DNA of 64,000 nucleotides, taken from an uncultured Spirochaetaceae bacterium. GTDB lineage: Bacteria > Spirochaetota > Spirochaetia > Sphaerochaetales > Sphaerochaetaceae. A program made the position numbers and the translations under genes. The DNA lies in contig CALXOL010000012.1 of assembly GCA_944390015.1 (NCBI GenBank), positions 1-64,000 on the forward strand. Reading direction: 5' to 3'. The notes below the pieces were generated by a model. The model was not told the origin of the DNA. It did no database searches and saw only the letters and a list, made by a program, of their open reading frames with translations. Below, piece after piece: positions 7,266 to 62,081 of this stretch; the stretch's first letter is position 1; every line of letters begins with the position of its first letter.

Positions 7266-7808
7266 TCAGAACATCCAGCCTAATCCAGCTCGGAATGTAA
7301 GATCCTCCATCGAGAAATCCAACAGATCAGCCTTGCTTGAGCCGAGCATGTAATCAGCTCCTGCTTCGAGCATTAGGGAGTTCCCGACCCTCGTTCCGAG
7401 AGTAAGCCCTATCCCATAATCCGGCAGCTTCTCATCGAATCCCATGATCGCATCCACCATGAGATAGAATTTCGTACCGCTCTCATCCTTGAGCCTCGTC
7501 ATCTCAGCACTCAGGCAGTCGATGACAGCATCCTTCTCCTTGGATACGAGCTCAAGTGATGCCAGGTCTTCCTTTATGAGGATGAGATCATCCTTCAGTT
7601 CCGATATCATCGAGTCGTCCGATGACGCTGTCGATGCGCTCTCCGACATCCATCCAGAGTCTGTCCTCAGCCCTTCTTCCCGGACTTCCTGAACCGAGGT
7701 ATCTGAAGGGGCTTTTTCCTGCGATCCTGTCACACGCCCTGGGAAGGCCCAGAGCGAGAAGGATGCCACCGATAAAACCAATAAGAATATTCCTAAGCGT
7801 CTGCACAA
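7266..7808 (-). CDS. exported coiled-coil protein with beta-rich C terminus, lysis region
   Basis: A 180-aa protein opening with TTG eight bases after AGGAGG. Residues 1-22 form a signal peptide (RRLGIFLLVLSVASFSLWAF). Residues 65-110 are heptad-like and acidic (SELKDDLILIKEDLASLELV), and residues 112-180 alternate like a short outer-membrane beta structure ending in aromatic Phe (TFRAGLGWMF). No family is recognised. Position, export and coiled coil fit a spanin-like or envelope-disrupting role, which is inference. A second ORF starts two bases downstream in another frame (7588..7806). Confidence 0.6.
   Translation of the reverse strand: MCRRLGIFLLVLSVASFSLWAFPGRVTGSQEKAPSDTSVQEVREEGLRTDSGWMSESASTASSDDSMISELKDDLILIKEDLASLELVSKEKDAVIDCLSAEMTRLKDESGTKFYLMVDAIMGFDEKLPDYGIGLTLGTRVGNSLMLEAGADYMLGSSKADLLDFSMEDLTFRAGLGWMF
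7588..7806 (-). CDS. 72-aa membrane/lipoprotein-like ORF embedded in another frame
   Basis: This ORF starts with GTG two bases after the TTG of the 180-aa gene, so both could use the same AGGAGG. It begins MQTLRNILIGFIGGILLALG, a strong hydrophobic segment, followed by LPRAC, a relaxed lipobox-like site, then a basic Gly/Arg-rich tail. Embedded out-of-frame pairs of membrane proteins at the end of lysis cassettes are known for Rz/Rz1 spanins. It may instead be a chance ORF. Confidence 0.35.
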   Translation of the reverse strand: MQTLRNILIGFIGGILLALGLPRACDRIAGKSPFRYLGSGSPGRRAEDRLWMDVGERIDSVIGRLDDIGTEG

Positions 7809-7809
7809 T

Positions 7810-8367
7810 TCATTTTCCTCCTGTGATTCTTGCTATGTATTCACGTCCTTCCGCCGCTTTCTCCCGCTCTCCGGCCTTCTCGGCCTCCTCAACTGTCATT
7901 GCCGTACCCTTGACAAGACAGAGTGGAGCATCAAGATTTGGTGCGCCACCGAGAACATCGTCAACAAAGCGGTAACGCAGAGTACGTTCCAGGCTGGAAG
8001 TAGCCCTCTGTTTCGACACCTCCTTGCAAAACCTGGTACCAAGTGCCATGAGTATGCCTATGCACATCACGGAGAGCCATAAGGACACCCATCCCCAGGT
8101 GGTTGAGAGTACTGCACCTAACCACCCTGCATCGGAGAGTGCGATATAGATGGTAATCTGCCACATCTCAGGCGCGTAATCCTTCAGTGATAGATGGTAT
8201 GCGAGTCTTGCTACAAGCGCTGCGATGACGGCTCCGAACAGGCCGAAGAAAACGGAATAAAGCACCGTTTCCTTGAAAATTATTCCGGCAACCAGGGATG
8301 AGATCAGGAACCCTGTAAGCGCCGCAGTCCCGTAAATAAGGACTTTCTTCTCAGTCACATTCATCAT
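7810..8367 (-). CDS. membrane protein of the lysis region
   Basis: A 185-aa protein with four hydrophobic stretches (residues about 8-30, 35-60, 68-90, 92-110) followed by a charged cytoplasmic tail ending EGREYIARITGGK. No family is recognised. Its ATG overlaps the stop of the holin-like gene (CATGATG), and its own TGA lies two bases before the TTG of the next gene, so all are translationally coupled. A second holin or antiholin is possible from position, but the sequence does not prove it. Confidence 0.55.
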   Translation of the reverse strand: MMNVTEKKVLIYGTAALTGFLISSLVAGIIFKETVLYSVFFGLFGAVIAALVARLAYHLSLKDYAPEMWQITIYIALSDAGWLGAVLSTTWGWVSLWLSVMCIGILMALGTRFCKEVSKQRATSSLERTLRYRFVDDVLGGAPNLDAPLCLVKGTAMTVEEAEKAGEREKAAEGREYIARITGGK

Positions 8368-8714
8368 GCAGCCTCCTTTCTACCAGCCTTGGCCTTCGCC
8401 TTCTTGAAAGCGCCATGTGCTATGTCGTAGATGATGAACGAGAACCCCGTATAGATGATTCCGTTCCCGATGCCATAGAGCAGAACCCGTACAAGCCCAC
8501 TCCAGGACTCCACCTCATACTGCAACCAGCCGAAGACGAAGCCCACGGCCAGATACATTGCCAGAAGCAGAACCGGGAGTGGAGGGAACCACTCGGGCAG
8601 ACTCATCCTCTTGAGCCAGTATCCGGCGGTCATTATCACGACGATCCATATCGCCATGGCAGGATCCACGTAGGATACGAGCAGTTTGAGGATTGAAAAA
8701 ATTGGAGCACCCAT
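8364..8714 (-). CDS. holin-like membrane protein
   Basis: I place the start at ATG 8714, directly after GAGGAGGGG, giving 116 aa; the longer open frame to 8915 has no such site. The product has three or four hydrophobic segments (ILKLLVSYV..., AIWIVVIMTAGYWLKRM, LLLAMYLAVGFVFGWL, YGIGNGIIYTGFSFIIY) and ends in a lysine-rich tail KKAKAKAGRKEAA. Size, several TM segments, basic C terminus and lysis-region position fit a phage holin of the Hol44/holin V type. The family assignment is tentative. Confidence 0.55.
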   Translation of the reverse strand: MGAPIFSILKLLVSYVDPAMAIWIVVIMTAGYWLKRMSLPEWFPPLPVLLLAMYLAVGFVFGWLQYEVESWSGLVRVLLYGIGNGIIYTGFSFIIYDIAHGAFKKAKAKAGRKEAA

Positions 8715-8901
8715 AAACCCCTCCTCTATGAGAATCTTAATGAAAGTAAGAACTGCGGAAAGGAATGATAGGACCGGTGCGAACACCCCGTTGCTCATAT
8801 GGTCAATGTCTTCTCTTTCCCCGCTCATAAGAGAAAGCCTAGCAGTGATTACAAGAGGAAGAAAGGAGACCTGTGCAATCTTCGCACAGGCTGTAAAAAG
8901 G

Positions 8902-8930
8902 TTGTATATTCGCAATGCTTGGCTTATACT
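8902..8930 (+). promoter_or_regulatory. rightward sigma-70 promoter for the small toxin gene
   Basis: TTGTAT, a 17-bp spacer and TATACT. It points against the surrounding leftward phage operon. Transcription would start near 8937, giving a leader of about 77 nt before the ATG at 9014. Confidence 0.6.
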
Positions 8931-15216: not shown

Positions 15217-17400
15217 TTATATGCTTCTGAGCTTGGTTCCATCATCCAGCTCTACTTCAAGTGTGAAAACGGTGCGCCCTATGCAGTCCGCACCAGTTAT
15301 GTCTATTGTCTTATGTCCTATCGCCTTCGAGGACGTGTTCCACTGCTCATCGGCCGTGGAATCGGATGTGACACGTTTCCATGAGAAGCGCCAGTCATCT
15401 AGGGATGCGGTAATGTCCTCATTATTTCTTAAAACCTGAGCGCTCAGCGTCGTGCTGACCGCAGGGAGGCGGAATACGTTCCCGTTTGATGAATTGATGA
15501 AGAGTGAATAGGAATATCCCTGGGGGCCAGTCCACCTGATGATTGACCAGTCCTCATCATCAGAGGTTCTCACTCTCGCCCATATGCTCTCTCCCACCTC
15601 GGCCTCAGGAGGGGTATCATACCACTGGTTTGATGCAGAGGGCTCCTCATCACCGGAGCAGACCGTATACTGGATCTGGAATGAATCCAGGCTCATGCCG
15701 AATACGACCTGTTCCATCGAATACGTCTCACCCTCGTATTCCGCAGAAACCCTTACCACGTTCCTTCCTGGGGAGAAAACTGTTTTCTCGAAAGTCACAT
15801 TTACGTCAACAAGTTCATCTTGCAGTACGCCGTTCAGATACCATCTGGGTATGGCTCCGAACTTGTCGAAAATCATACCGGATGCCGTTGCCATGATCGG
15901 GATATCATCATCTTCTGAAATCATGTTCTCGGATATCTTCATCTGGAAGAATTCAACATTCTCCGTAATATCAGGAATCAGCTTCTCATGTTTCAATGCC
16001 GGCTCAGAGAGAGTGACCGCCCCATAACCCTCAGCCTCATATTCATAAACCCCTGTGTCATCACTGCGCTTTCTTGCAAGTATTCTGACTTTCACGTTCA
16101 ATCCCGACACCTTGGATTCATTCAAAGTGTATATGCAGCCAGGCTTATATGAATTCTTGGATTTGAAGCTATAGGTATGAAGGTTGAAATTGTTCCTAGC
16201 ATTGATTGCATAAGCGAGTTTCATGGCATCTTCGATGGTCTGGACATATGAGGCGCTGTAGTTCTCCGCATTATCCCCCGCATAACCGCATTTCCCCGTC
16301 TCATCCACCATGTAGGATACATCTGCGCGCACTTCCACCCTGAATCCCCAGTTGCAATATGCGACCCCGGATGCGGAACCTTTGATATGCCCTCCCTCAT
16401 TGTCGCAGTTCGAAAGAGAATATTTACCCTTCAGTGATGACGTGGCCTTGGTATCCGTACCCTTCACCCAGAAGTTTGAAAGAATCACATCCTTATACCC
16501 TTCCGGAAGCTGGGAAAAATCCCAGGCTACATCGTTATCCAGATTAAGGAAGCCACTCACCACCGTCGGAGCGAAGAACATCGTGTTCCATGCGCTTGCT
16601 TCCTTCGAATACAGGAGGATGTCCTCATGGGTTTTATACTTCGGAAATGACACCAGGGCACCCTTCCTCTTATCGTCAGCCCTGGAAATCTGCATCGACT
16701 GTATGAAGGAGGTTATGTCTCCTAATGACTCCATGTCGGAAACAATCTCATGCCCCTCATCATCCGTTCCTGTCACTATAGGCCCTGCCTGAAATATGAC
16801 CAGCTTTCCCGTATTGTCGAAATAATAGTCATGGACGAATTCATAAAGAAGTTTGGAAAGCTTATCATCCAGGTATTCACCTGAGCTGAGAGAGAACCTG
16901 AAAACGGTAGAAGAAATTGAAGGAGCTTCAATATCGGTCATACCACATAATTGCAATATCTTATGGACAAGAGAGTGTTCCCTGTCATCAGGATCCGACA
17001 CCTTGAATCCATCCCATGACTCGGAATAGACTATGCCCTCCTTACAATCAGAGGAATCTGTCGGAGCCTCGTAAACCTTGACATGCATCTTCTCCGTATA
17101 ATCGAGAACCTCAAGTGAAATGCTTCCAAGATATGTCTGATTCACAGTAACCGAGGCCTGTGGCCTGATTACACCGGAAAACAATATGTTGCCCTCATCA
17201 TCCTTGACAACCGCATCCAGCAGGCCTTCGGCAAACATGAGATCATCCAATATGTCTTCTCCCCTTACAGACACGCTGCATGAAGAGCTCCTATGCTTAC
17301 CTTCCGCACCAACGGCCTCCTTAAGGGAGAACCCATCCCGGAGGATGGGGTATGTTTTTGAACCGATATTCAACGTATATGAATAATCTAACACAGGCAT
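15217..17400 (-). CDS. baseplate/tail-tip protein
   Basis: A 727-aa protein. ATG 17400 overlaps the tape-measure stop as TGATG and is preferred over an in-frame ATG 18 bases earlier. The N-terminal half (SYTLNIGSKTYPILRDGFSL, EVLDYTEKMHVKVYEAPTD) has the look of a Dit/Tal-like hub. Residues 390-490 include a short-loop region common in tail hubs (KLAYAINARNNFNLHTYSF, ESKVSGLNVKVRILARKRS). The C-terminal 200 residues are Ig-like (QWYDTPPEAEVGESIWARVR). Its place directly after the tape measure supports a distal-tail role. Confidence 0.7.
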   Translation of the reverse strand: MPVLDYSYTLNIGSKTYPILRDGFSLKEAVGAEGKHRSSSCSVSVRGEDILDDLMFAEGLLDAVVKDDEGNILFSGVIRPQASVTVNQTYLGSISLEVLDYTEKMHVKVYEAPTDSSDCKEGIVYSESWDGFKVSDPDDREHSLVHKILQLCGMTDIEAPSISSTVFRFSLSSGEYLDDKLSKLLYEFVHDYYFDNTGKLVIFQAGPIVTGTDDEGHEIVSDMESLGDITSFIQSMQISRADDKRKGALVSFPKYKTHEDILLYSKEASAWNTMFFAPTVVSGFLNLDNDVAWDFSQLPEGYKDVILSNFWVKGTDTKATSSLKGKYSLSNCDNEGGHIKGSASGVAYCNWGFRVEVRADVSYMVDETGKCGYAGDNAENYSASYVQTIEDAMKLAYAINARNNFNLHTYSFKSKNSYKPGCIYTLNESKVSGLNVKVRILARKRSDDTGVYEYEAEGYGAVTLSEPALKHEKLIPDITENVEFFQMKISENMISEDDDIPIMATASGMIFDKFGAIPRWYLNGVLQDELVDVNVTFEKTVFSPGRNVVRVSAEYEGETYSMEQVVFGMSLDSFQIQYTVCSGDEEPSASNQWYDTPPEAEVGESIWARVRTSDDEDWSIIRWTGPQGYSYSLFINSSNGNVFRLPAVSTTLSAQVLRNNEDITASLDDWRFSWKRVTSDSTADEQWNTSSKAIGHKTIDITGADCIGRTVFTLEVELDDGTKLRSI

Positions 17401-19688
17401 CAGGCGGTATACCTCCATTTCGGCAGGGCTCCAGTCCTCTGAGCCCTTTCTATTGCTCTGAAGACATCTTCAGTCAGCTGGTCTCCGCTATAGGCCGTAC
17501 CTACATTGATAACCAGATTGATGACTCCTCCGTTATTGTTTCCAGATACACCGAACCGTTCCATGTTGGAATCCGTAAGAGGAAGTATCATCTCCGGAGA
17601 ACCACCCTCTCCTATTAGAGCCCTGGTCGGACTCTGAACGATTCCACCAGCGGCAAGAGGTGTATACTGCTGGCTTGAAATCGCAGCAATCTCAGCAGCG
17701 GTTGCCGCAGCCGATATCCCTGTCAGCACACCAGCCAGAACAGGGTTGGCGCCATAGCTTGCCCATATTTCAGTAATGGAAAGAGCGGCATTAATTGCAG
17801 CCTGCGCTAACGAATTAATCTTATTTGCTTCAAAAGCCGATTTATTAAGCTCATCGGCCTTCTTCTTGGCGCTTTCCTTTTCTGTAAGCGCCTCCTCTTC
17901 AGCCGCTGCCCTCTCCTCATCCATGGCATTCATGGAATCGATATATTCTCCATAAGAGATGTTCCCGGAAGCGAGAAGCGCATTGAGGCTGTCGCTCTGC
18001 CGTTCCTGTTTCTCATCCAGTTCATCAAAGTATTCATCCCATTTATCTTCGATTTTATCGAGCTCGGCGATGGCATTGTCGGCAAGAGTGGAAAAGAGCG
18101 AAGCAAGACTCTGATTGAAAGATGTAATCTCAGAAACCACGTCAGACACCGTACTAACAGCATTGGATACCTTCTCCTCCCAGCTCTCGCCCTCCTCCTC
18201 GGCTTCATCAAATGCCTTCTTCTGCTCAAAAAGGGCCTGATTTATCTCCTTTATCTGTGCTATCTGTTCCTCGCTGAGACCTCCGCTCTTTATGAGATCA
18301 TAACCAGATAACATGCGCTGGTTGATCTGTTCAATCTGATAGGATTCGGATAGGGAGCCGTTGGATTTCATATACTCGCTGAAAGCATCCTGTTTACTCT
18401 TCTGACTAGCATACGATGCGGCTTGATTTAGTAAAACATCATCATATGAGTACCCAAAAGGAGATGTCAGTATTTCAGAAACAGAAGGTTGTCCAACGGT
18501 TATAGGAGCAAAGCCAAAATCATTTCTAACAATATCCTGCATTTCCCAGAGATTCTTAAAGCCTGTTACCCTTGAGGCTGACTCTTTTTCTGTTGCTCGT
18601 CTTTCAAACTCATCTAAGATGGCCCAGACGGCTCTCATGTCTGTTTCTGTGTAATACCCTGCATCTAGTCCTGCATATGCGTAATTTATTCCGTTCTGAC
18701 CAAAATCAGGAAGCTCCCTCTCCGCTTTTTTGTACCACTCATAATATGTGGATGCATTTAGTATGGCATTTAGCTCATCTTCAGACAGAGTTTTATAATC
18801 CATGCTTCCAGATCCTGAAATCACGCCGGATGCAAGACTCCTGTACTCTGTCCTTGCATTATGCTCTTCTACAAATCCTTCAATCCGTTCAACAAGGCTT
18901 AACGTATAATCAAGGACTCCATCGAGAGAATTCATTAAAGCCTTTCCGAGATCTTCCTTCAAGTCCTGCCATGCGTCCTGAAGCTGTTCCAGCTTACCAG
19001 TATCGGTATCTGCAAGAGCTTCCGCTATTCCTCCGTAGGTGTCTGCTACTTCCTTTAATATGATGCGCTGAGCTTCATATAAACCGTTCTGTTCCTGGAC
19101 TTTTTTTATGTTCTCAGCCTGCTCTTCAGTAAGCTGTATGTTCGCTTCCTTCAATGATTCGATTTCATCAGCTGGATCTGCAAGAGCCTGTCCAAGTCTT
19201 TGTGCAGCTCCCGTAAGATCTTCCCCTGTTGCGGCTGCCATATCGAGAATGGCCTTTGTCGCTTCAGGCATGACATCACGGCCGATCTTCCTTGTAGCCA
19301 CAAGAACCTGCTCCGCAGCAATAATCTCCTGATCGCTGTATGTAGTTACCTGTTGGAGAGAATCAGCAAGATTAAGAAGTTCCGTGGCAGACATTCCACA
19401 GGCGTTCTGAGTAGCTTTCAATGTTGCTTGCAAACGAACTTCAGCCTGTTCCTGTGCAGCATATGAATTGACTAGCTCAGTAGCAACACTAATAAATTTC
19501 TGCATATAGGCTGTAAGTGTATTGGTAGCTGTCCCCACTAAAGATATTGTAGTTGAGATTTTTCCTATTTTTGTACTTGCAAAGTCAAAATCATTTCCTA
19601 CTTGTTTTAACTTAACTGTTAAATTATTAAGGCTGTTTATAGCTTGAGACGTATCAGCTGAAACACGTAATGTAATATCACTTGCCAT
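17400..19688 (-). CDS. tail tape measure protein
   Basis: A 762-aa helical protein that sets tail length and is ejected with the DNA. The N-terminal 100 residues are coiled coil plus a hydrophobic stretch. A globular unit at residues 95-250 (LADSLQQVTTYSDQEIIAAE, AAATGEDLTGAAQRLGQALA, TYGGIAEALADTDTGKLEQL) matches the conserved core of tape-measure proteins. A long central coiled coil and a C-terminal hydrophobic/Gly segment (AAAGGIVQSPTRALIGEGGS PEMILPL) follow. It is short for the class, implying a modest tail. The first 105 residues are paralogous to two broken copies near 60458 and 61751. Confidence 0.9.
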   Translation of the reverse strand: MASDITLRVSADTSQAINSLNNLTVKLKQVGNDFDFASTKIGKISTTISLVGTATNTLTAYMQKFISVATELVNSYAAQEQAEVRLQATLKATQNACGMSATELLNLADSLQQVTTYSDQEIIAAEQVLVATRKIGRDVMPEATKAILDMAAATGEDLTGAAQRLGQALADPADEIESLKEANIQLTEEQAENIKKVQEQNGLYEAQRIILKEVADTYGGIAEALADTDTGKLEQLQDAWQDLKEDLGKALMNSLDGVLDYTLSLVERIEGFVEEHNARTEYRSLASGVISGSGSMDYKTLSEDELNAILNASTYYEWYKKAERELPDFGQNGINYAYAGLDAGYYTETDMRAVWAILDEFERRATEKESASRVTGFKNLWEMQDIVRNDFGFAPITVGQPSVSEILTSPFGYSYDDVLLNQAASYASQKSKQDAFSEYMKSNGSLSESYQIEQINQRMLSGYDLIKSGGLSEEQIAQIKEINQALFEQKKAFDEAEEEGESWEEKVSNAVSTVSDVVSEITSFNQSLASLFSTLADNAIAELDKIEDKWDEYFDELDEKQERQSDSLNALLASGNISYGEYIDSMNAMDEERAAAEEEALTEKESAKKKADELNKSAFEANKINSLAQAAINAALSITEIWASYGANPVLAGVLTGISAAATAAEIAAISSQQYTPLAAGGIVQSPTRALIGEGGSPEMILPLTDSNMERFGVSGNNNGGVINLVINVGTAYSGDQLTEDVFRAIERAQRTGALPKWRYTA

Positions 19689-19718: not shown

Positions 19719-19835
19719 TTATCCAAACAGAAAAATAAGTATAAGAATGATTGGAACTCCCAAAAAGGATAATAACCAGAAAATAATTCCTATTTTTACT
19801 CCAGTACGGAAATCCTTATCTTCAAACATACTCAT
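19719..19835 (-). CDS. 38-aa membrane protein upstream of tape measure
   Basis: A short ORF starting MSMFEDKDFRTGVKIG, followed by one hydrophobic helix IIFWLLSFLGVPIILILIFL and Phe-Gly-stop. It sits between the G/GT chaperones and the tape measure, where phages rarely have a gene. Both relic cassettes near 61 kb have a different single-helix peptide in the same position (60917..61036 and 61877..61960), which argues that it is a real, selected gene. A role in DNA ejection or superinfection exclusion is conjecture. Confidence 0.6.
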   Translation of the reverse strand: MSMFEDKDFRTGVKIGIIFWLLSFLGVPIILILIFLFG

Positions 19836-19867
19836 ATTGTTATGGTATCATTCCTATCTGCCATCTG

Positions 19868-20143
19868 TCAAATCATCCTCGGATGATAGAACCCATCCAG
19901 AGGATCCAAGAGATCTATCACCTCAACAAGTTTATTTGGATTCATGCCCCATGGACCGTAGGGCATGCCCATCCTCTTCCATCTGAGATAGAACTGGACT
20001 GCGGAAAGCGCTTCAATGTCTTCCAGCATTCCAGGTATCTCATATGCCCTCACCCATTCATCGGTCTTGAGTCTTACCTCCCTGTCCCTTCCTCCGCTGG
20101 GTGAGTATGATGCCGTGTACCCCTCAGAGAGAAGAGAATACAC
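19868..20143 (-). CDS. tail assembly chaperone T domain, expressed by -1 frameshift
   Basis: The open frame here (YSLLSEGYTASYSPSGG to GFYHPRMI) has only a GTG and no ribosome site, but it is exactly in the -1 frame of the upstream G-like gene across an A_AAA_AAC heptamer. The natural product should be a G-T fusion of about 195 aa covering 20457..19868, as in lambda gpGT and most long-tailed phages, where G and GT guide tail tube assembly around the tape measure. Read as an independent protein it would be 91 aa. Confidence 0.75.
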   Translation of the reverse strand: MYSLLSEGYTASYSPSGGRDREVRLKTDEWVRAYEIPGMLEDIEALSAVQFYLRWKRMGMPYGPWGMNPNKLVEVIDLLDPLDGFYHPRMI

Positions 20144-20151
20144 GGCCTTTA

Positions 20152-20457
20152 TCAGTTTTTTTCACTTTCCATCAGGAATGCGGCATTGACGATTTCCATC
20201 GCAACCTTGGAAACCAGGTTGAATGTTCCAGGGCTGTTGAGAACCGTATCAGCAGACACTCCGCTCTCCCAACCATTCACCTCAGCTGATTCAACCTTGG
20301 TGACGAATGCCTTGAAGAGACCGGTGTCCGTGAGTTCCTTGACTCCTCTTATCTTCGTCTGGGCTTCTTCCGCCGTAGGCACTCTGTATGTCACTTTGAC
20401 ATTTACATCATGAAACGGAATGGAAACCGTCCTCTCCCTTTCAAGAGTAACCATCAT
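20152..20457 (-). CDS. tail assembly chaperone (G-like)
   Basis: A 101-aa protein (MMVTLERERTVSIPFHDV to FLMESEKN) between the major tail protein and the tape measure, the standard location of gpG. It starts inside the end of the tail-tube gene (ATG overlapping TGA). Near its stop the coding strand reads GAA AAA AAC TGA, a canonical slippery heptamer giving a minor G-T fusion. A near-identical copy lies at 61352. Confidence 0.8.
   Translation of the reverse strand: MMVTLERERTVSIPFHDVNVKVTYRVPTAEEAQTKIRGVKELTDTGLFKAFVTKVESAEVNGWESGVSADTVLNSPGTFNLVSKVAMEIVNAAFLMESEKN
20155..20161 (-). promoter_or_regulatory. programmed -1 ribosomal frameshift site
   Basis: Heptamer A_AAA_AAC, in the zero frame of the G-like gene, immediately before its TGA. 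After slippage the ribosome reads CTG ATA AAG GCC and continues into the T frame. The same site is kept at 61355..61361 in the relic copy. Confidence 0.8.
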
Positions 20458-21977: not shown

Positions 21978-22498
21978 AGGACCTTGTTCCTCCTGAACTG
22001 CTCCAAGAGCTTCTGTACTGCAAGAGGGGGAACGGACTGTTCGATGCTCTCCGTCCCTCCTTCCGTACTTCTGGATGTGATGCCTAAGAGCTTTGCGGAA
22101 TTCAGCTTTGAAAGGTGCTGCACTGTGAACGCTATGGCAGTACGAAGGGAAGAAGGAGTTTTTCCCTCTTCCCATCCGCATGTGTAGTTGACAACAACTT
22201 CCTCTTCTTCAGATGAGGTGGAACCTAATACGACAGTCTCGGAGCGCTTTTCATATCTGAAGACGACATCCCTTTCCCCGATTTTCACGCTCTCAACGGA
22301 AAGCACTGGGGAATGAGTCAAGACATAGATGCTGCCTCCGCCTTTGAAATGCTCCTCGACAGAACCCAGCTCTATTGAAGCATAGGAAAGGCAGGCCTCT
22401 TCAGCTGTTGAAAGCAGATCCGTATAAGCCGTATTCTGGCTCTCCGGAAACGAAAAGCCATATCTTGTCCTCAAATCATCAAGCGTTACAAGCATCAA
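21974..22498 (-). CDS. head-tail connector (gp6-like adaptor)
   Basis: A 174-aa protein. The N terminus LVTLDDLRTRYGFSFPESQN followed by LLSTAEEACLSYASIEL is the helical start of HK97 gp6/SPP1 gp15-type adaptors ('lvtleelk.~l.i....d..l..ll.aA...ve'). A central region SPVLSVESVKIGERDVVF, the short motif VVNYTCGW and a final helix (LRTAIAFTVQHLSKL) also match. It lies directly after the capsid gene. The last residues overlap the next gene. Confidence 0.7.
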   Translation of the reverse strand: MMLVTLDDLRTRYGFSFPESQNTAYTDLLSTAEEACLSYASIELGSVEEHFKGGGSIYVLTHSPVLSVESVKIGERDVVFRYEKRSETVVLGSTSSEEEEVVVNYTCGWEEGKTPSSLRTAIAFTVQHLSKLNSAKLLGITSRSTEGGTESIEQSVPPLAVQKLLEQFRRNKVL

Positions 22499-22505
22499 CT
22501 ACTCC

Positions 22506-23627
22506 TCAAGCCGCAGCCTTCTTCATCTTGAGGACTGCAAAAGCTTCCTTTACGGTCAGATCTCCGTCAATCCTCTCCTGACCTCTCACGCCCACCTGCC
22601 CGTTTGCAGCATAGAGCTCCGGAAGAAGCTTGACTTCGACACTCTGCCTGTCGCAGATGTGGTAGTAGCTGAAATCACCGACAACCATTGCAACCGCCTC
22701 TGATCCGAGAGTCGGGAATTCTCCTGATACAACTACAGGAATACCCATTATCTGCTTGATTTCATTAGCCTGAGGGAACATGTAGGTGTTTCCATCTTTG
22801 AACTCATGCACGATGTCCAGGAACTCCTGGGAACATACTATTGTTGCGTTTCCACGATATGCCTTGAGCTTCTGGATTGTCTGCTTGACTTCGGCCCATG
22901 TAACTGTCGTCTCAGATGCCGCCGTAACGATATTGGCTGCAGCCGCATTCACAGCAACCCCCCTGAGCTTGGTCTTTGAGGAAGAAGTTCCGGAACCGAA
23001 GATGATCTCCTTGTCCTCCTTCTTGGCGAAAGCCTTCGCAAACTTCTCTTCGATGTAACCCATGACATCAACACCGAGATCCGCAATGTACTCCTCGGAG
23101 ATCTTTGTAAGTGCTCCAAGCTTGAGAGCCGCAAGCCCTACACCGTTGATACTTGGGGTCGTCTCTCCGAAAGCTCCGTTTTCATTGATGTAGTCAACTA
23201 CGACATCATCGCCTTCAACCCAAATCGTATATTCTCCGGATGCGGGATGCACTGTGCATAGGCCACGAACCCTTGCAATCTGCTCCTTCTTCATCTGGAT
23301 GTTTCTTGTGCATTCCCTTGGAAGGAGGCCTGTGAAGCTTGTTCCTTTGGAGACGGCCTCGACGATCTTCTGGCCGAACTTCTCCCTTTCGGAGAGCTCC
23401 TTAGGCTTCTTATCCTCTTTTTCAAGACCTTCTGGAATCGTACCGCCCTCATCAAGCTCCTCCTTCTCGACAAGCGCAATCTGCTCCTCAAGGTCCTTGG
23501 CCTGCTTCAGAAGGTTCTCATACGCCTTGATATCCTCATCCTTCGAGGACTCAAGCATAGCCTCGAACTTCTCCTTGATCTTCGCTTTTACTTTTGCGAG
23601 CATCGCCATAAGTGTCTTCTTATCCAT
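22506..23627 (-). CDS. HK97-fold major capsid protein
   Basis: A 373-aa protein. Residues 1-100 form a Lys/Glu-rich helical delta domain (scaffold) that should be removed by the protease encoded just upstream. The mature part has the phage_capsid pattern: FGETTPSINGVGLAALKLGA, TKISEEYIADLGVDVMGYI, a P-loop-like arm and the spine AVAMVVGDFSYYHICDRQSV, ending with GQERIDGDLTVKEAFAVLKM. Ribosome site AAGGAGATGAATC lies before the ATG. Confidence 0.92.
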   Translation of the reverse strand: MDKKTLMAMLAKVKAKIKEKFEAMLESSKDEDIKAYENLLKQAKDLEEQIALVEKEELDEGGTIPEGLEKEDKKPKELSEREKFGQKIVEAVSKGTSFTGLLPRECTRNIQMKKEQIARVRGLCTVHPASGEYTIWVEGDDVVVDYINENGAFGETTPSINGVGLAALKLGALTKISEEYIADLGVDVMGYIEEKFAKAFAKKEDKEIIFGSGTSSSKTKLRGVAVNAAAANIVTAASETTVTWAEVKQTIQKLKAYRGNATIVCSQEFLDIVHEFKDGNTYMFPQANEIKQIMGIPVVVSGEFPTLGSEAVAMVVGDFSYYHICDRQSVEVKLLPELYAANGQVGVRGQERIDGDLTVKEAFAVLKMKKAAA

Positions 23628-23630
23628 GAT

Positions 23631-24236
23631 TCATCTCCTTATCAGTAAATCCGCGAAAGCCTGGGCAACTTTAGACCGCCTTTCAGCCACCGCCTCATCG
23701 GCACCGGATTCATCCATCGATTCCTCCGACCGTCCAGGATGCCGTACTCCCGCCTTTTCTCCCATTTTCGCGTACACCTCTCCAGCCGGCATAGTGACAA
23801 AGTCTAAATATCGCACAAGCTCGTAAGTGTCCTCTTTTATACGGCCGTAATCATCAGTCTCCCCGTATCCGACCGAGGAAACACCGATTGGTACCCCCTC
23901 ATTGGCTAGCATGGTTAGAAGCGCCTCGTACTCCTTATCAACGAACTTGATATCGACTCTGAGTTCCTCGCCTTCTATACGAGGATTTGAGCAGATTGCT
24001 TTTGATATCCCATACTCCTCACCTGTCGTCCAGTTGACCTCATGCCCGTCATAGGCGATAGTCACCTTGTTCTCAGCACAGATCCTCTTGGCAAGAGCGG
24101 TACTGTAAATCCGGCCGTTAAGATTCTTCTGATCCAGCTTCCACACGCTGGCAGTCCATTTCCCCTCGCCACCGCTCTCCTGAAGTACCGGCTTATGCAG
24201 CACTCCGCCTGATTCAATCAGTAATTTCCCTTTCAT
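23631..24236 (-). CDS. prohead maturation protease
   Basis: A 201-aa protein with KNLNGRIYSTALAKRICAEN near residue 38, typical of prohead serine proteases of the herpesvirus-assemblin-like clan. A catalytic His is likely at GHEVNW (about residue 65), and Ser at VPIGVSSVGYGE (about residue 118). It lies between portal and capsid genes, as expected. The C-terminal 40 residues are charged and may be cleaved off. Catalytic assignments are from motif position only. Confidence 0.75.
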   Translation of the reverse strand: MKGKLLIESGGVLHKPVLQESGGEGKWTASVWKLDQKNLNGRIYSTALAKRICAENKVTIAYDGHEVNWTTGEEYGISKAICSNPRIEGEELRVDIKFVDKEYEALLTMLANEGVPIGVSSVGYGETDDYGRIKEDTYELVRYLDFVTMPAGEVYAKMGEKAGVRHPGRSEESMDESGADEAVAERRSKVAQAFADLLIRR

Positions 24237-57694: not shown

Positions 57695-60415
57695 ATGGCT
57701 AATTTCTTAACAGCCCTCTTCGGAGGAACAAAACACGACAGGGACATGAAACATCTTGCACCTGTCATCAAAAAGATAAACGACGAGGAAGCTTGGGCAA
57801 AAAGCCTGAGTGAGGATGATTTTAAGAAACAGACAGAGATCTGGAAGAAAGAAGTAAAGGAAGGCAGAAGCCTTGATGAGATACTTCCAAAGGCATATGC
57901 ACTTGCGCGGGAAGCAGCGCTTAGAACCATCGGAGAGAGACACTATGATGTTCAGATGATGGGTGCCGTAACACTGCACGAAGGAAAGATAATGGAACTC
58001 AAGACTGGAGAGGGAAAAACCCTATCCTGTGTTCCTGCAGCATATCTTAACTCCCTTGAGGGGGAAGGTGTACATATCATAACCGTAAATGATTACCTTG
58101 CCAGGCGTGATGCCGAATGGATGGCACCAATCTATGAGTACCTTGGCTTAAGAGTCGGAGTAATCACCAGCGATATGGATACTGCGACAAAGAGGATGAA
58201 CTACTCTGCCGATGTCACATACGGAACCAATAATGAGTTCGGATTCGATTATCTGAGAGACAACATGAAGGTAAGTTATGCAGACAAGATCCAGGCAAAG
58301 CATCATTATGCGATTGTCGATGAGATAGACAGCATCCTTATTGATGAGGCCCGTACCCCTTTAATCATATCGGGACAGGGAGAGGATGATACGCCTAAGG
58401 TAAGAGCAGCGAACTCAATTGTCCCACTCTTAAAAGAGTGTGAGAAAGATCCAGAGACAGGTACGTATTATGAGCTGACGGAGATGGAAAAGCTCGACAG
58501 GGAGCTTGCCCTGAACTTCGATGAGCGTGGTGACTACAAAATTGACGAGAAGGAGAAGAAGGTAACATTCACAAAGCAGGGTATGAGCCACATGGAGGAA
58601 CTTCTCAAGAAAACCGGTGCTCTACTTGCAAGCAAGGATGATGACGGCAATACCATTTACAGCCTTTATGACGGAGAGAACTTTGAAATGGTTCACTATG
58701 TCACACAGGCAGTAAGGGCACATCGACTTTTTGAAAAAGATGTTGATTACCTTGTAAAAGACGGACAGGTCCAGATAGTTGATGAATTCACAGGTCGTGT
58801 TCTACAAGGGAGAAGATACTCGGATGGGCTTCATCAGGCGATTGAGGCAAAAGAGAACGTAAAGGTACTCGGACAGAGCAAGACTTTTGCAACGATAACA
58901 TTCCAGAACTTCTTCAGAATGTACGATAAACTCTCAGGAATGACTGGAACTGCGGATACCGAAGCAGGAGAGTTCAAAGAGATCTACGGCCTTGATGTCG
59001 TAGTTATTCCGACTAACAGGCCTGTAATCAGAAAGGATCTGAAAGATCTGATCTACTATGATGAGAAATCAAAATTCAATGCGATTGTAAACGATGTAAA
59101 AAAAATACATGAGACCGGGCAACCTATTCTTATCGGCACGGTGAGCATCGAGAAATCAGAGCTGCTCTCCTCCCTTCTAAGGAGAGCTGGAATAAGACAT
59201 GAGGTTCTCAATGCTAAAAACCATGCAAGGGAGGCTTACATCATCGGAGAGGCAGGTATGAAGGGTGCCGTTACCATCGCCACTAACATGGCAGGTCGTG
59301 GAACTGATATCAAGCTTGGAGGCTCCCCCGAGCACCTTGCAAGGAAAAAATGTGGAACCGAGGCATCCCTTGAGGAGTACAAGAAAGCACTCAGTGAGAT
59401 TATGGGAGACTACAAGAAAGCCTATGAGGAGGTCAAAGCTCTCGGAGGTCTTTACATAATCGGTTCAGAGAGGCATGAATCGAGGCGAATCGATAACCAG
59501 CTGAGGGGAAGAAGCGGACGACAGGGAGATCCCGGAACATCCAGGTTCTACGTCTCTCTTGAGGATCCACTGATGAGGCTCTTTGCAAAAGAAGGACTTA
59601 GGGAGATGATTGGCAGGCTCGGACTGAATGATGGAAGTGCTATTGAGCATAAGATGCTTGATAACGCCATTGAGAAAGCCCAGGAAAGAGTTGAGGCCAG
59701 GAACTTCGAGATAAGAAAGCACCTGCTTGAATATGATGATGTACTTAATGAACAGAGGAACTACATCTATTCTGAGCGTGATAAGATTCTTCAGGATGAT
59801 GATCTCACAGAGAGAATACTTGCCAATGTTAAAAACATCATAGACTTCTACCAGACGGAGAATAAGAAGGATGAAGCAAAAGCTCTTAGTGAGATAAAGG
59901 ACTTCTTCCATATCACCGATGAGAACTTTAGCCTTGATAACGCCTATTCTTTCATAGAGAAGAACATCAGGGACAAAGAGGCAAAAGTAACAAAACCGGA
60001 GTTCAACAAGTTTATCAGGTTCGTCTACCTTAGGAATATCGACAAACGGTGGATAGACCATCTAGATGCGCTTGAAGAACTCAAGGACTCTGCACGCTTG
60101 ATGAGCTATGCGCAGAAAAATCCACTTGTCGAGTATAAGAATACCGCCAGCGACGCTTTTGATGACATGATCGGTGACATCAGTGACCAGGTTGTTAAAA
60201 CCGTAGTATCGGTACGTGTGCTTACAGAAAGAGAACAGAAGGAAAGAATCCTTAATGCTCGACACGCACAAGCACAAAACCAGAGTGCGGTATCAAGTCG
60301 TAGTGAAAGTGAGAACCAGCAAGTACGCAGAACAAGCCCTAAGATCGGAAGAAATGATCCATGCCCATGCGGAAGCGGTAAGAAGTACAAGAACTGCTGC
60401 GGTAGAAACTGGTAA
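57695..60415 (+). CDS. secA: preprotein translocase ATPase SecA
   Basis: A 906-aa motor for Sec-dependent export. NBD1: [20 protein letters not shown] is Walker A type (ELKTGEGKT), with [17 protein letters not shown] and [20 protein letters not shown] (Walker B DEID). The pre-protein binding domain, NBD2 ([30 protein letters not shown]) and helical scaffold follow. A C-terminal zinc tail, [17 protein letters not shown], is kept, which binds SecB or ribosome. It ends at a terminator directly bordering the phage relic. Confidence 0.98.
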
Positions 60416-60429
60416 CATATTCTTAACTT

Positions 60430-60458
60430 GCCCACGTTTTTGCTTACGTGGGCTTTTT
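60430..60458 (+). terminator. terminator of secA
   Basis: GCCCACG (60430..60436) pairs with CGTGGGC (60447..60453), followed by five T. The open frame of the tape-measure relic stops against this T-run. Confidence 0.9.
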
Positions 60459-60886
60459 CATGAGAAAATATTTTCCCACATAGCAAAAATCATCTCACTT
60501 GCAGTCATTCCACAGGCATTCTGAGTCGCCTTCAAAGTGGACTGTAAGCGTATCTCGGCCTTTTCCTGCACAGAAGAAATTTTCGACAGAGATATAAGCC
60601 CCTGCCCCATTTTTGAAATCATTGAAAGAACAGTTCCTGCGGCATTTGTAACAATAGAAAAACCAGCGGAAAGCGAAACAATTCTTGAAGTAGCCGCTTC
60701 TGCAGGTTTTGCTAAATTTGCAAGTTTAGAACTAACACTTTGAGTATTTTTTGATAACTGTTCAAATCTTGAGTTACTTGATTGTATGGTTTTTGTTAAC
60801 TGATCCAGTTTCTGGTTTACACTTTGAATTCCATTTAGTGCGGAATTTACATCAGCTTCAAGTTTTACTGTAATTTTTCCAGACAT
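60458..60886 (-). pseudogene. tape-measure N-terminal fragment (cassette B)
   Basis: A 142-aa open frame, SGKITVKLEADVNSALNGIQ to LKATQNACGMTASEMIFAMW. Residues 105-128 closely match the prophage tape measure (RLQ-T-LKATQNACGM), and the first 100 are only distantly similar. After the match the frame ends within 15 residues at the secA terminator, so over 600 residues are missing. It could be expressed as a short protein; a decayed gene is the default reading. It is the last member of a relic cassette whose chaperones are nearly those of the prophage. Confidence 0.8.
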
Positions 60887-60916
60887 TTCCTATCCTGCAA
60901 ATAGGAAATGAATTGC

Positions 60917-61036
60917 TTACAATACAAGACAAAGATAAACAAAAATTACAGGAATTACAACGCACGCAATCATAAAAATAATTGCAATTTTTGCACCTAA
61001 ATTCAAATAATAAATGTTATCTTTTTTCTTCTCCAT
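60917..61036 (-). CDS. 39-aa membrane peptide (cassette B)
   Basis: An ORF reading MEKKKDNIYYLNLGAKIAII, then a hydrophobic helix FMIACVVIPVIFVYLCLVL. It sits at the same place as the 38-aa membrane protein of the prophage (19719..19835), but the sequence is unrelated apart from the charged start and single helix. It is intact in an otherwise broken cassette, which is suggestive of retained function. Confidence 0.5.
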   Translation of the reverse strand: MEKKKDNIYYLNLGAKIAIIFMIACVVIPVIFVYLCLVL

Positions 61037-61067
61037 ACTTGTATTTTAAAGTCAATCCATCTTCCTG

Positions 61068-61343
61068 TCAAATCATCCTCGGATGATAGAACCCATCCAA
61101 AGGATCCAGAAGCTCTACCACCTCAACAAGCTTATTTGGGTTCATGCCCCATGGACCGTAGGGCATGCCTATCCTCTTCCATCTGAGATAGAACTGGACT
61201 GCGGAAAGCACTTCTATGTCTTCCAATATTCCAGGTATCTCATATGCCCTCACCCATTCATCGGTCTTGAGTCTTACCTCCCTGTCCCTTCCTCCGCTGG
61301 GTGAGTATGATGCCGTGTACCCCTCAGAGAGAAGGGAATACAC
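61068..61343 (-). pseudogene. tail chaperone T-domain copy (cassette B)
   Basis: A 91-aa open frame differing from the prophage copy at 19868 by about five residues. It has the same frameshift relationship to the upstream copy. With no phage around it to serve, it is probably a relic, but it is not yet interrupted. Confidence 0.8.
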
Positions 61344-61351
61344 GGCCTTGA

Positions 61352-61657
61352 TCAGTTTTTTTCACTTTCCATCAGGAATGCGGCATTGACGATTTCCATC
61401 GCAACCTTGGAAACCAAGTTGAATGGTCCAGGACTGTTGAGAACCGTATCAGCAGACACCCCGCTCTCCCAGCCTGTCACCTCAGCTGATTCAACCTTGG
61501 TTACAAATGTCTTGAATAGCCTGGTGTTCGTGAGTTCCTTGACTCCTCTTATCTTCGTCTGCGCCTCCTCTGCGGTAGGTACATTGAAAGCCACATCAAC
61601 ATTCACATCAAGAAACGGTATTGAAACTGTCTTAGTTCTCTCAAGACTTATCATCAT
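61352..61657 (-). pseudogene. tail chaperone G-like copy (cassette B)
   Basis: A 101-aa open frame differing from the prophage copy at 20152 by about 14 residues, mostly in the N-terminal third. The slippery heptamer A_AAA_AAC is retained at 61355..61361. No promoter or ribosome site of note is visible. Confidence 0.8.
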
Positions 61658-61687
61658 ACAGCATCCTATGCGCTGAGAACTTTGCTT

Positions 61688-61750
61688 CTAAAGAATCAAC
61701 TCAAACGGAAAGGTTACCGCATTGATATTTAACCAATTGGAGGCAGAAGA
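61688..61750 (-). pseudogene. C-terminal scrap of a tail-tube-like protein
   Basis: The frame reads SSASNWLNINAVTFPFELIL and stops at TAG 61688, just upstream of the G-like copy, where the tail-tube gene belongs. The end differs from the prophage tail tube (ending ...DALSVKEAA), so it seems to derive from a different phage or tube type. Only about 20 codons remain. Confidence 0.4.
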
Positions 61751-61849
61751 CTATTTTTCAATATGATAATGTCTATAATCAACTAATTTAGTTACATTAA
61801 CAGCCTGACTAACATCTGAAGATATTTTTAAAGTTATATTGCTTGCCAC
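61751..61849 (-). pseudogene. tape-measure N-terminal scrap (cassette C)
   Basis: GTG-started frame of 32 aa, VASNITLKISSDVSQAVNVT to YHIEK, whose first 18 residues align with the prophage tape-measure start (ASDITLRVSADTSQAINSL). It ends at TAG 61751, where a tail-tube scrap begins. Confidence 0.65.
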
Positions 61850-61876
61850 ATCAAGCTCCGATGAGGAAGACAGAAA

Positions 61877-61960
61877 TTAAAATAAAATTGAAGCTAGAAA
61901 AATTAAAATTATTGGAGATAAAAAAGCCAACAATAAAATGATTGCAGCTATTAAAACCAT
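61877..61960 (-). CDS. 27-aa membrane peptide (cassette C)
   Basis: An ORF reading MVLIAAIILLLAFLSPIILI then FLASILF: one uninterrupted hydrophobic helix. It is positioned like the small membrane proteins of the two other cassettes, between chaperone end and tape-measure start, yet with a third, unrelated sequence. Confidence 0.4.
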   Translation of the reverse strand: MVLIAAIILLLAFLSPIILIFLASILF

Positions 61961-62011
61961 TTATTTTCAAGCCAGAACATTTTTTTAGTATATTTCCTGT
62001 CTTCCACTTTG

Positions 62012-62058
62012 TCAAATCATCCTCGCCTTATAGAACCCATCCAGAGAGTCCGAGAGCT
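62012..62058 (-). pseudogene. chaperone T-domain C-terminal scrap (cassette C)
   Basis: The frame reads SDSLDGFYKARMI and stop, matching the end of the prophage chaperone (DPLDGFYHPRMI), with in-frame stops just upstream. It marks the right edge of the relic; the M23-like gene ends about 20 bp beyond. Confidence 0.7.
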
Positions 62059-62081
62059 ATCACTTAACTAATATGTCTATT

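Follow-up and report, generated by a model that had tools for sequence, protein, structure and literature searches.

Minimal prophage stumps of a spirochaete genus share a small membrane-peptide gene placed like the HK97 exclusion gene

Exclusion morons are, as a rule, described from prophages. The GenBank annotation of HK97 places moron gene 15 behind chaperones 13/14 and ahead of a putative terminator and the tape-measure protein (TMP) gene. Its product, gp15, is a superinfection-exclusion protein with a predicted inner-membrane location; hybrids that have the tail tube and TMP genes of HK022 evade its block (PMC10883804). DicB, encoded by the cryptic prophage Qin of E. coli, protects the host from phages that depend on an inner-membrane receptor, and its authors propose this protection as a reason for its retention (PMC6832061). 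As a small protein that a defective prophage retains, DicB sets a precedent for retained exclusion; it differs from the genes described here in acting via MinC and ManYZ and in belonging to the immunity region of one large remnant rather than to many minimal stumps. Ltp of TP-J34 is not known to lie in the slot between the chaperones and the TMP. This prophage-encoded exclusion protein is overcome through alterations of the tape-measure protein (PMC10883804) and, unlike the bare membrane peptide reported here, is a surface lipoprotein of Gram-positive hosts (PMC3952083). Spirochaete phages have hardly been studied (PMC11144348).

We analyzed a 64,000-nucleotide stretch of DNA (the window), a contig of a spirochaete genus that includes Candidatus Ornithospirochaeta and uncultured Spirochaetaceae MAGs. 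The window carries a full prophage (7146-44011) of the same phage family as the stumps considered below, with the 20-bp repeat TTTGGTACAGAAATGGTACA at both bounds. On its minus strand, the tail tube gene is followed by the G and GT chaperones (19868-20457), a 38-aa membrane peptide (19719-19835) with the promoter TTGACA-18-TACCAT (19842-19871), and the TMP (17400-19688), whose residues 1-75 are hypervariable; the whole chaperone–peptide–TMP order extends over 20457-17400. One end of the prophage is a module of three genes (7266-8915) that is also found in several prophages of the genus (L227, L228, L229, and L237). One of these genes is weakly similar to holins and another has a conserved ...RAGLGWMF C-terminus; a search for Pfam matches to the module returned none. 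The last prophage gene, W7266, was considered as a second retained gene and dropped, as its other matches are apparently the termini of further prophages that share this module. Elsewhere in the prophage, the capsid region (22300-23640) is 99% identical to that of L062 and identity in the adjoining tail genes falls to 50-85%, a contrast that points to strong mosaicism or recent exchange.

Like gp15, the spirochaete peptide is a small predicted inner-membrane protein encoded between the tail chaperones and the TMP. In two relatives, L122 and L123, GT and TMP are adjacent without the peptide, so that the peptide gene is, as in a moron, an extra gene between genes that are otherwise neighbors. 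A blastp comparison with gp15 revealed no sequence similarity (best E 0.17 over 12 residues). The layout also differs, with a hydrophobic stretch at the N end and a long charged tail in gp15 but a short charged N end ahead of a C-terminal span in the spirochaete peptide. A Shine-Dalgarno-like leader precedes gp15; the spirochaete peptide is apparently leaderless. By anatomy, the peptide may thus work like gp15, yet it is not a member of the gp15 family. The main new feature relative to gp15 is the occurrence of solitary chromosomal copies. The GT–TMP slot also holds a 42-aa membrane peptide, unrelated and preceded by a purine-rich leader, in one phage from a MAG with the label Clostridiales Firm_16 (L117:6330-6470).

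Two partial chromosomal copies, B and C, sit on the minus strand between the host gene secA (57695-60415, plus strand) and an M23 peptidase gene. The intrinsic terminator of secA (60430-60453, plus strand) adjoins the relic boundary. Copy B ends there in a truncated TMP N terminus (60458-60886), homologous to approximately residue 133 and including a PHROG tape-measure match. It further comprises a hairpin pairing the TMP start codon (60884-60910); an intact 39-aa single-span membrane peptide, MEKKKDNIYYLNLGAKIAIIFMIACVVIPVIFVYLCLVL (60917-61036); the promoter TTGACA-17-TAAAAT (61043-61071), with the ATG 6 nt downstream and the -35 overlapping the GT stop codon; and intact GT (91 aa, 61068-61343) and G (101 aa, 61352-61657) chaperones. 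Copy C (approximately 62066-61751) consists of the tip of the GT gene (62012-62066), the promoter TTGACA-17-TATACT with the ATG 6 nt downstream (61987-62015), a frameshifted peptide gene (61853-61980, read by eye), and a TMP N-terminal stub (61751-61849). Within the window, peptide B is therefore the intact one, and copy C is already dead through its frameshift. Between the prophage and copy B, the G/GT DNA is 90% identical (E = 4e-240) and similarity drops at the GT stop codon; the GT proteins differ at 5 of 91 residues and the G proteins at 14 of 101 (86% identity). These data bear out a sequence-only reading of the window, which had noted partial relics of G/GT, membrane peptide, and TMP start beside secA and had given the same chaperone counts. 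Its listing of the G/GT chaperones for both relics holds for copy B, which has both G and GT, but not for copy C, which has only the tip of GT.

In genome G002, from a sister species, the end of a resident prophage, namely its last three genes with a large fibre-like gene further on, lies directly after secA, and in G071, from another, the site is empty, the M23 peptidase gene following almost directly after the secA stop codon. Because of this occupied and this empty site, the 3' end of secA is taken as an attachment site. In G068 (L227), the site at an ammonia-lyase-like (PALP-family) gene is likewise taken up by the end of a prophage, which includes a recombinase-like gene (recognized by eye); from sequence, both genes are thus prophage attachment sites. 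Since two different peptide/TMP starts stand in tandem at secA, two former prophages can be postulated there. Copies B and C are almost certainly eroded prophages at an attachment site.

To place these copies in the genus, single-sequence and profile searches covered 48 genomes and 80 host-site loci. We found 12 stumps in 10 of the 48 genomes at five host sites (genes named by Pfam): secA (copies B and C), a DUF362 gene (G010, G071, G069, and G002), the PALP-family lyase gene (G033, G035, and G070), a pstS-like gene (G068 and G010), and a cation-efflux gene (G009). Each site has a single orientation, which is shared by all four stumps at DUF362, by the three stumps and the G068 prophage at the lyase gene, and by both stumps at pstS; fixed orientation, together with a resident prophage and an empty site in relatives, is what prophage remnants display. 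An assembly artefact is argued against by the ten separately assembled genomes and the mostly mid-contig position of the stumps.

The peptide region is present in 12/12 stumps and is the sole part common to all. Its frame is open in ten, with one stop in G035 and the frameshift in copy C, and the peptide is 32-39 residues long (once 56). The ends of the stumps vary, the TMP pieces ranging from none to approximately 330 codons and GT from absent to complete. In two stumps, the start of the phage HNH gene is joined directly to chaperone sequence (L055:6530-6646; L060:10177-10464), and these joins appear to mark large deletions with different end points. In G002 (L156), the peptide is the only recognizable remnant; no further peptide-only locus was found among the 80 host-site loci. 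Similar peptides occur at different sites (G035/G068, B/G010, and G070/G009), and different peptides are found at one and the same site.

Ten other prophage genes served as controls. Six full prophages of this type are present in the genus (G000, G063, G064, G004, G001, and G014), all six with a peptide in the GT–TMP slot. Outside them, the genus search detected no capsid or TerL gene, save a distant 60-residue TerL fragment in G021, and no stump of this prophage type with portal, protease, connectors, tail tube, TMP C-terminus, or baseplate-type protein; weak TMP C-terminal matches in three genomes fall in other long open frames. Approximately 10.8 kb of tested control genes thus left none of this type, and the cassette region of less than 2 kb left 12 stumps. 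Under uniform survival, the probability of this outcome is of order 1e-10, a rough value that assumes equal detectability and independence; the stumps were located by way of the two flanks of the peptide, GT and TMP-N, and the control genes offset this bias only in part.

These counts bear on plain decay, in which the prophages at secA and the other sites were deleted piecemeal and a tail fragment was left by chance. The attachment sites at secA and the lyase gene, the varying stump ends, the decay of the flanking genes, and the dead peptides of copy C and G035 all agree with such a process. It does not predict that the same 0.2 kb would be found in every stump when the other tested genes left none, nor that the peptides would be mostly open and short of nonsynonymous change, and as a sufficient account it seems unlikely. 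Decay of a second prophage, named in the sequence-only reading as the simple alternative, thus holds for the origin of the stumps, secA being an attachment site, but does not alone explain the constant survival of this segment. A rough count of frame-breaking changes (approximately 2 in 500 peptide codons vs 19 in 2100 flanking codons) was not significant, and ORF integrity alone was set aside as evidence of retention.

The GT stop codon lies within ATTTGACAG, whose TTGACA is followed by a spacer of 17-18 nt, TAAAAT or a similar hexamer, 6-7 nt, and the start codon of the peptide. From this conserved -35/-10 pair and its spacing, the peptide gene is predicted to have a separate sigma-70-like promoter that incorporates the GT stop codon, as a moron would have a promoter of its own; with the start codon 6-7 nt past the -10, it is apparently leaderless. 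The promoter scores 8-11 of 12 in all copies except G002 and the outgroup L117. As background, among 2770 ATGs of the window, 28 reach a score of 9 (1%) and four reach 10. A search for the pattern over the genus gave 23 matches, 10 of which are known cassettes or prophages, and the reversed pattern gave zero. The remaining 13 lie elsewhere and have no such peptide, and the scan was rejected as a finder of new cassettes. Some of these other matches are orthologous: in four species (L206, L209, L211, and L217), the geometry TTGACA-17-TAGAAT-6-ATG stands at the start of a host gene that by eye resembles PtsI, so the leaderless geometry may serve the host too.

At the other end of the peptide gene, an unusually stable hairpin pairing the TMP start codon was found in 60% of 15 cassettes, compared with 6% of 83 other prophage gene starts (Mann-Whitney P = 8e-6), and the hairpin sequences differ among cassettes. 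The hairpin has no T run and covers the TMP start codon; it would keep the TMP untranslated from the peptide transcript. Examples at the same peptide–TMP junction were seen in L054-L058, L061, L062, and L077, many of them with purine-rich, Shine-Dalgarno-like sequence in the loop or close to it.

Between the prophages of the window and G063, identity is 0.99 in the capsid and 0.84 in GT, falls to 0.57 in the promoter and peptide and 0.52 in TMP residues 1-75, and returns to 0.81 in TMP residues 76-250. The peptide and the TMP start thus form one sharply bounded hypervariable block. The sequence-only reading had taken them for a matched pair exchanged as a unit, and the sharp divergent block between two close prophages agrees with this. 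Over nine loci, however, peptide and TMP-N similarity were uncorrelated (Mantel r = 0.14, p = 0.25), and G063 and G070, which have 71% of the peptide in common, share only 32% of TMP-N. The two alleles are, by these comparisons, not measurably linked, and the matched-pair reading is supported in part.

The same comparisons bear on the proposal that the stumps are donor cassettes, a silent store of peptide/TMP-start alleles that incoming or resident phages acquire by recombining in the conserved chaperone and TMP core. The variable block does lie between conserved DNA on both sides, and copy B ends within the conserved TMP core. Yet one or both flanks are missing in the DUF362-site stump of G010 and in G035, G069, and G002, the peptide and TMP-N alleles are unlinked, and neither a phage nor a prophage sharing the B or C TMP start was found, but just a second stump, in G010, that has a B-type peptide. 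We therefore regard donor cassettes, also suggested in the sequence-only reading, as highly improbable. The G010 peptide matches peptide B at 79% DNA identity, with 12 changes per 24 synonymous sites against 13 per 90 nonsynonymous sites (P = 0.002), and other relic peptide pairs have a similar synonymous excess (P = 5e-7 and 0.003). This excess includes time spent in phages, and host selection is therefore not isolated by it.

The peptide might instead serve the phage itself, in tail assembly, TMP handling, or DNA entry, its survival in stumps being accidental. Its presence in the slot of all six full prophages and its hypervariability along with the TMP start would suit such a role. The peptide is absent from L122 and L123, which have the same GT–TMP order, and so is not essential for the tail; moreover, the presence of a dedicated promoter points to expression outside the late operon, and the survival of the peptide in stumps is left unexplained. 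We judge a purely phage-serving peptide to be improbable.

The same tiny peptide gene with its own promoter in the HK97 gp15 slot makes the stumps look like retained phage-exclusion genes, and a gp15-like exclusion moron kept after erosion of the prophage is probably the correct reading. That host-side copies are kept for the peptide, as the sequence-only reading had considered, is supported indirectly by its presence in 12/12 stumps, the unretained controls, the promoter, and the gp15 slot, and exclusion is by analogy its most likely role. At secA, two prophages of this siphophage family would have integrated at the 3' end of the gene, and erosion would have stripped nearly everything but the moron, that is, the promoter at the GT stop codon, the peptide gene, and the hairpin over the TMP start. 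The promoter would work in the lysogen, and the peptide would sit in the inner membrane and stop DNA entry of related phages. It would probably act via the tape-measure protein or the partner of that protein in the inner membrane, as proposed for HK97 gp15. The host would then keep the peptide for protection from related phages.

This class of peptide has apparently survived its prophages again and again, down to a promoter and 32-39 residues. If confirmed as exclusion genes, they would rank with the smallest entry-exclusion genes maintained on a chromosome, and would offer a natural allele panel for asking what a lone transmembrane helix recognizes and how it halts DNA entry. More speculatively, and with doubtful odds, phage attachment sites across the genus might together hold a changing archive of entry-blocking peptides, each allele-specific and left behind by a lost prophage. 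Were this so, a strain's set of stumps would determine which tape-measure types are resisted, constituting a heritable, membrane-level memory of past lysogens.

A phage-type repressor of the S24-peptidase kind lies near the G069 relic (L061:11298-11951), adjoining the DUF362 gene, and likewise in L169, L172, and L178, four species in all. Because the latter three have it beside DUF362 yet carry no cassette, the repressor may be a host gene; it may otherwise be a second retained immunity gene.
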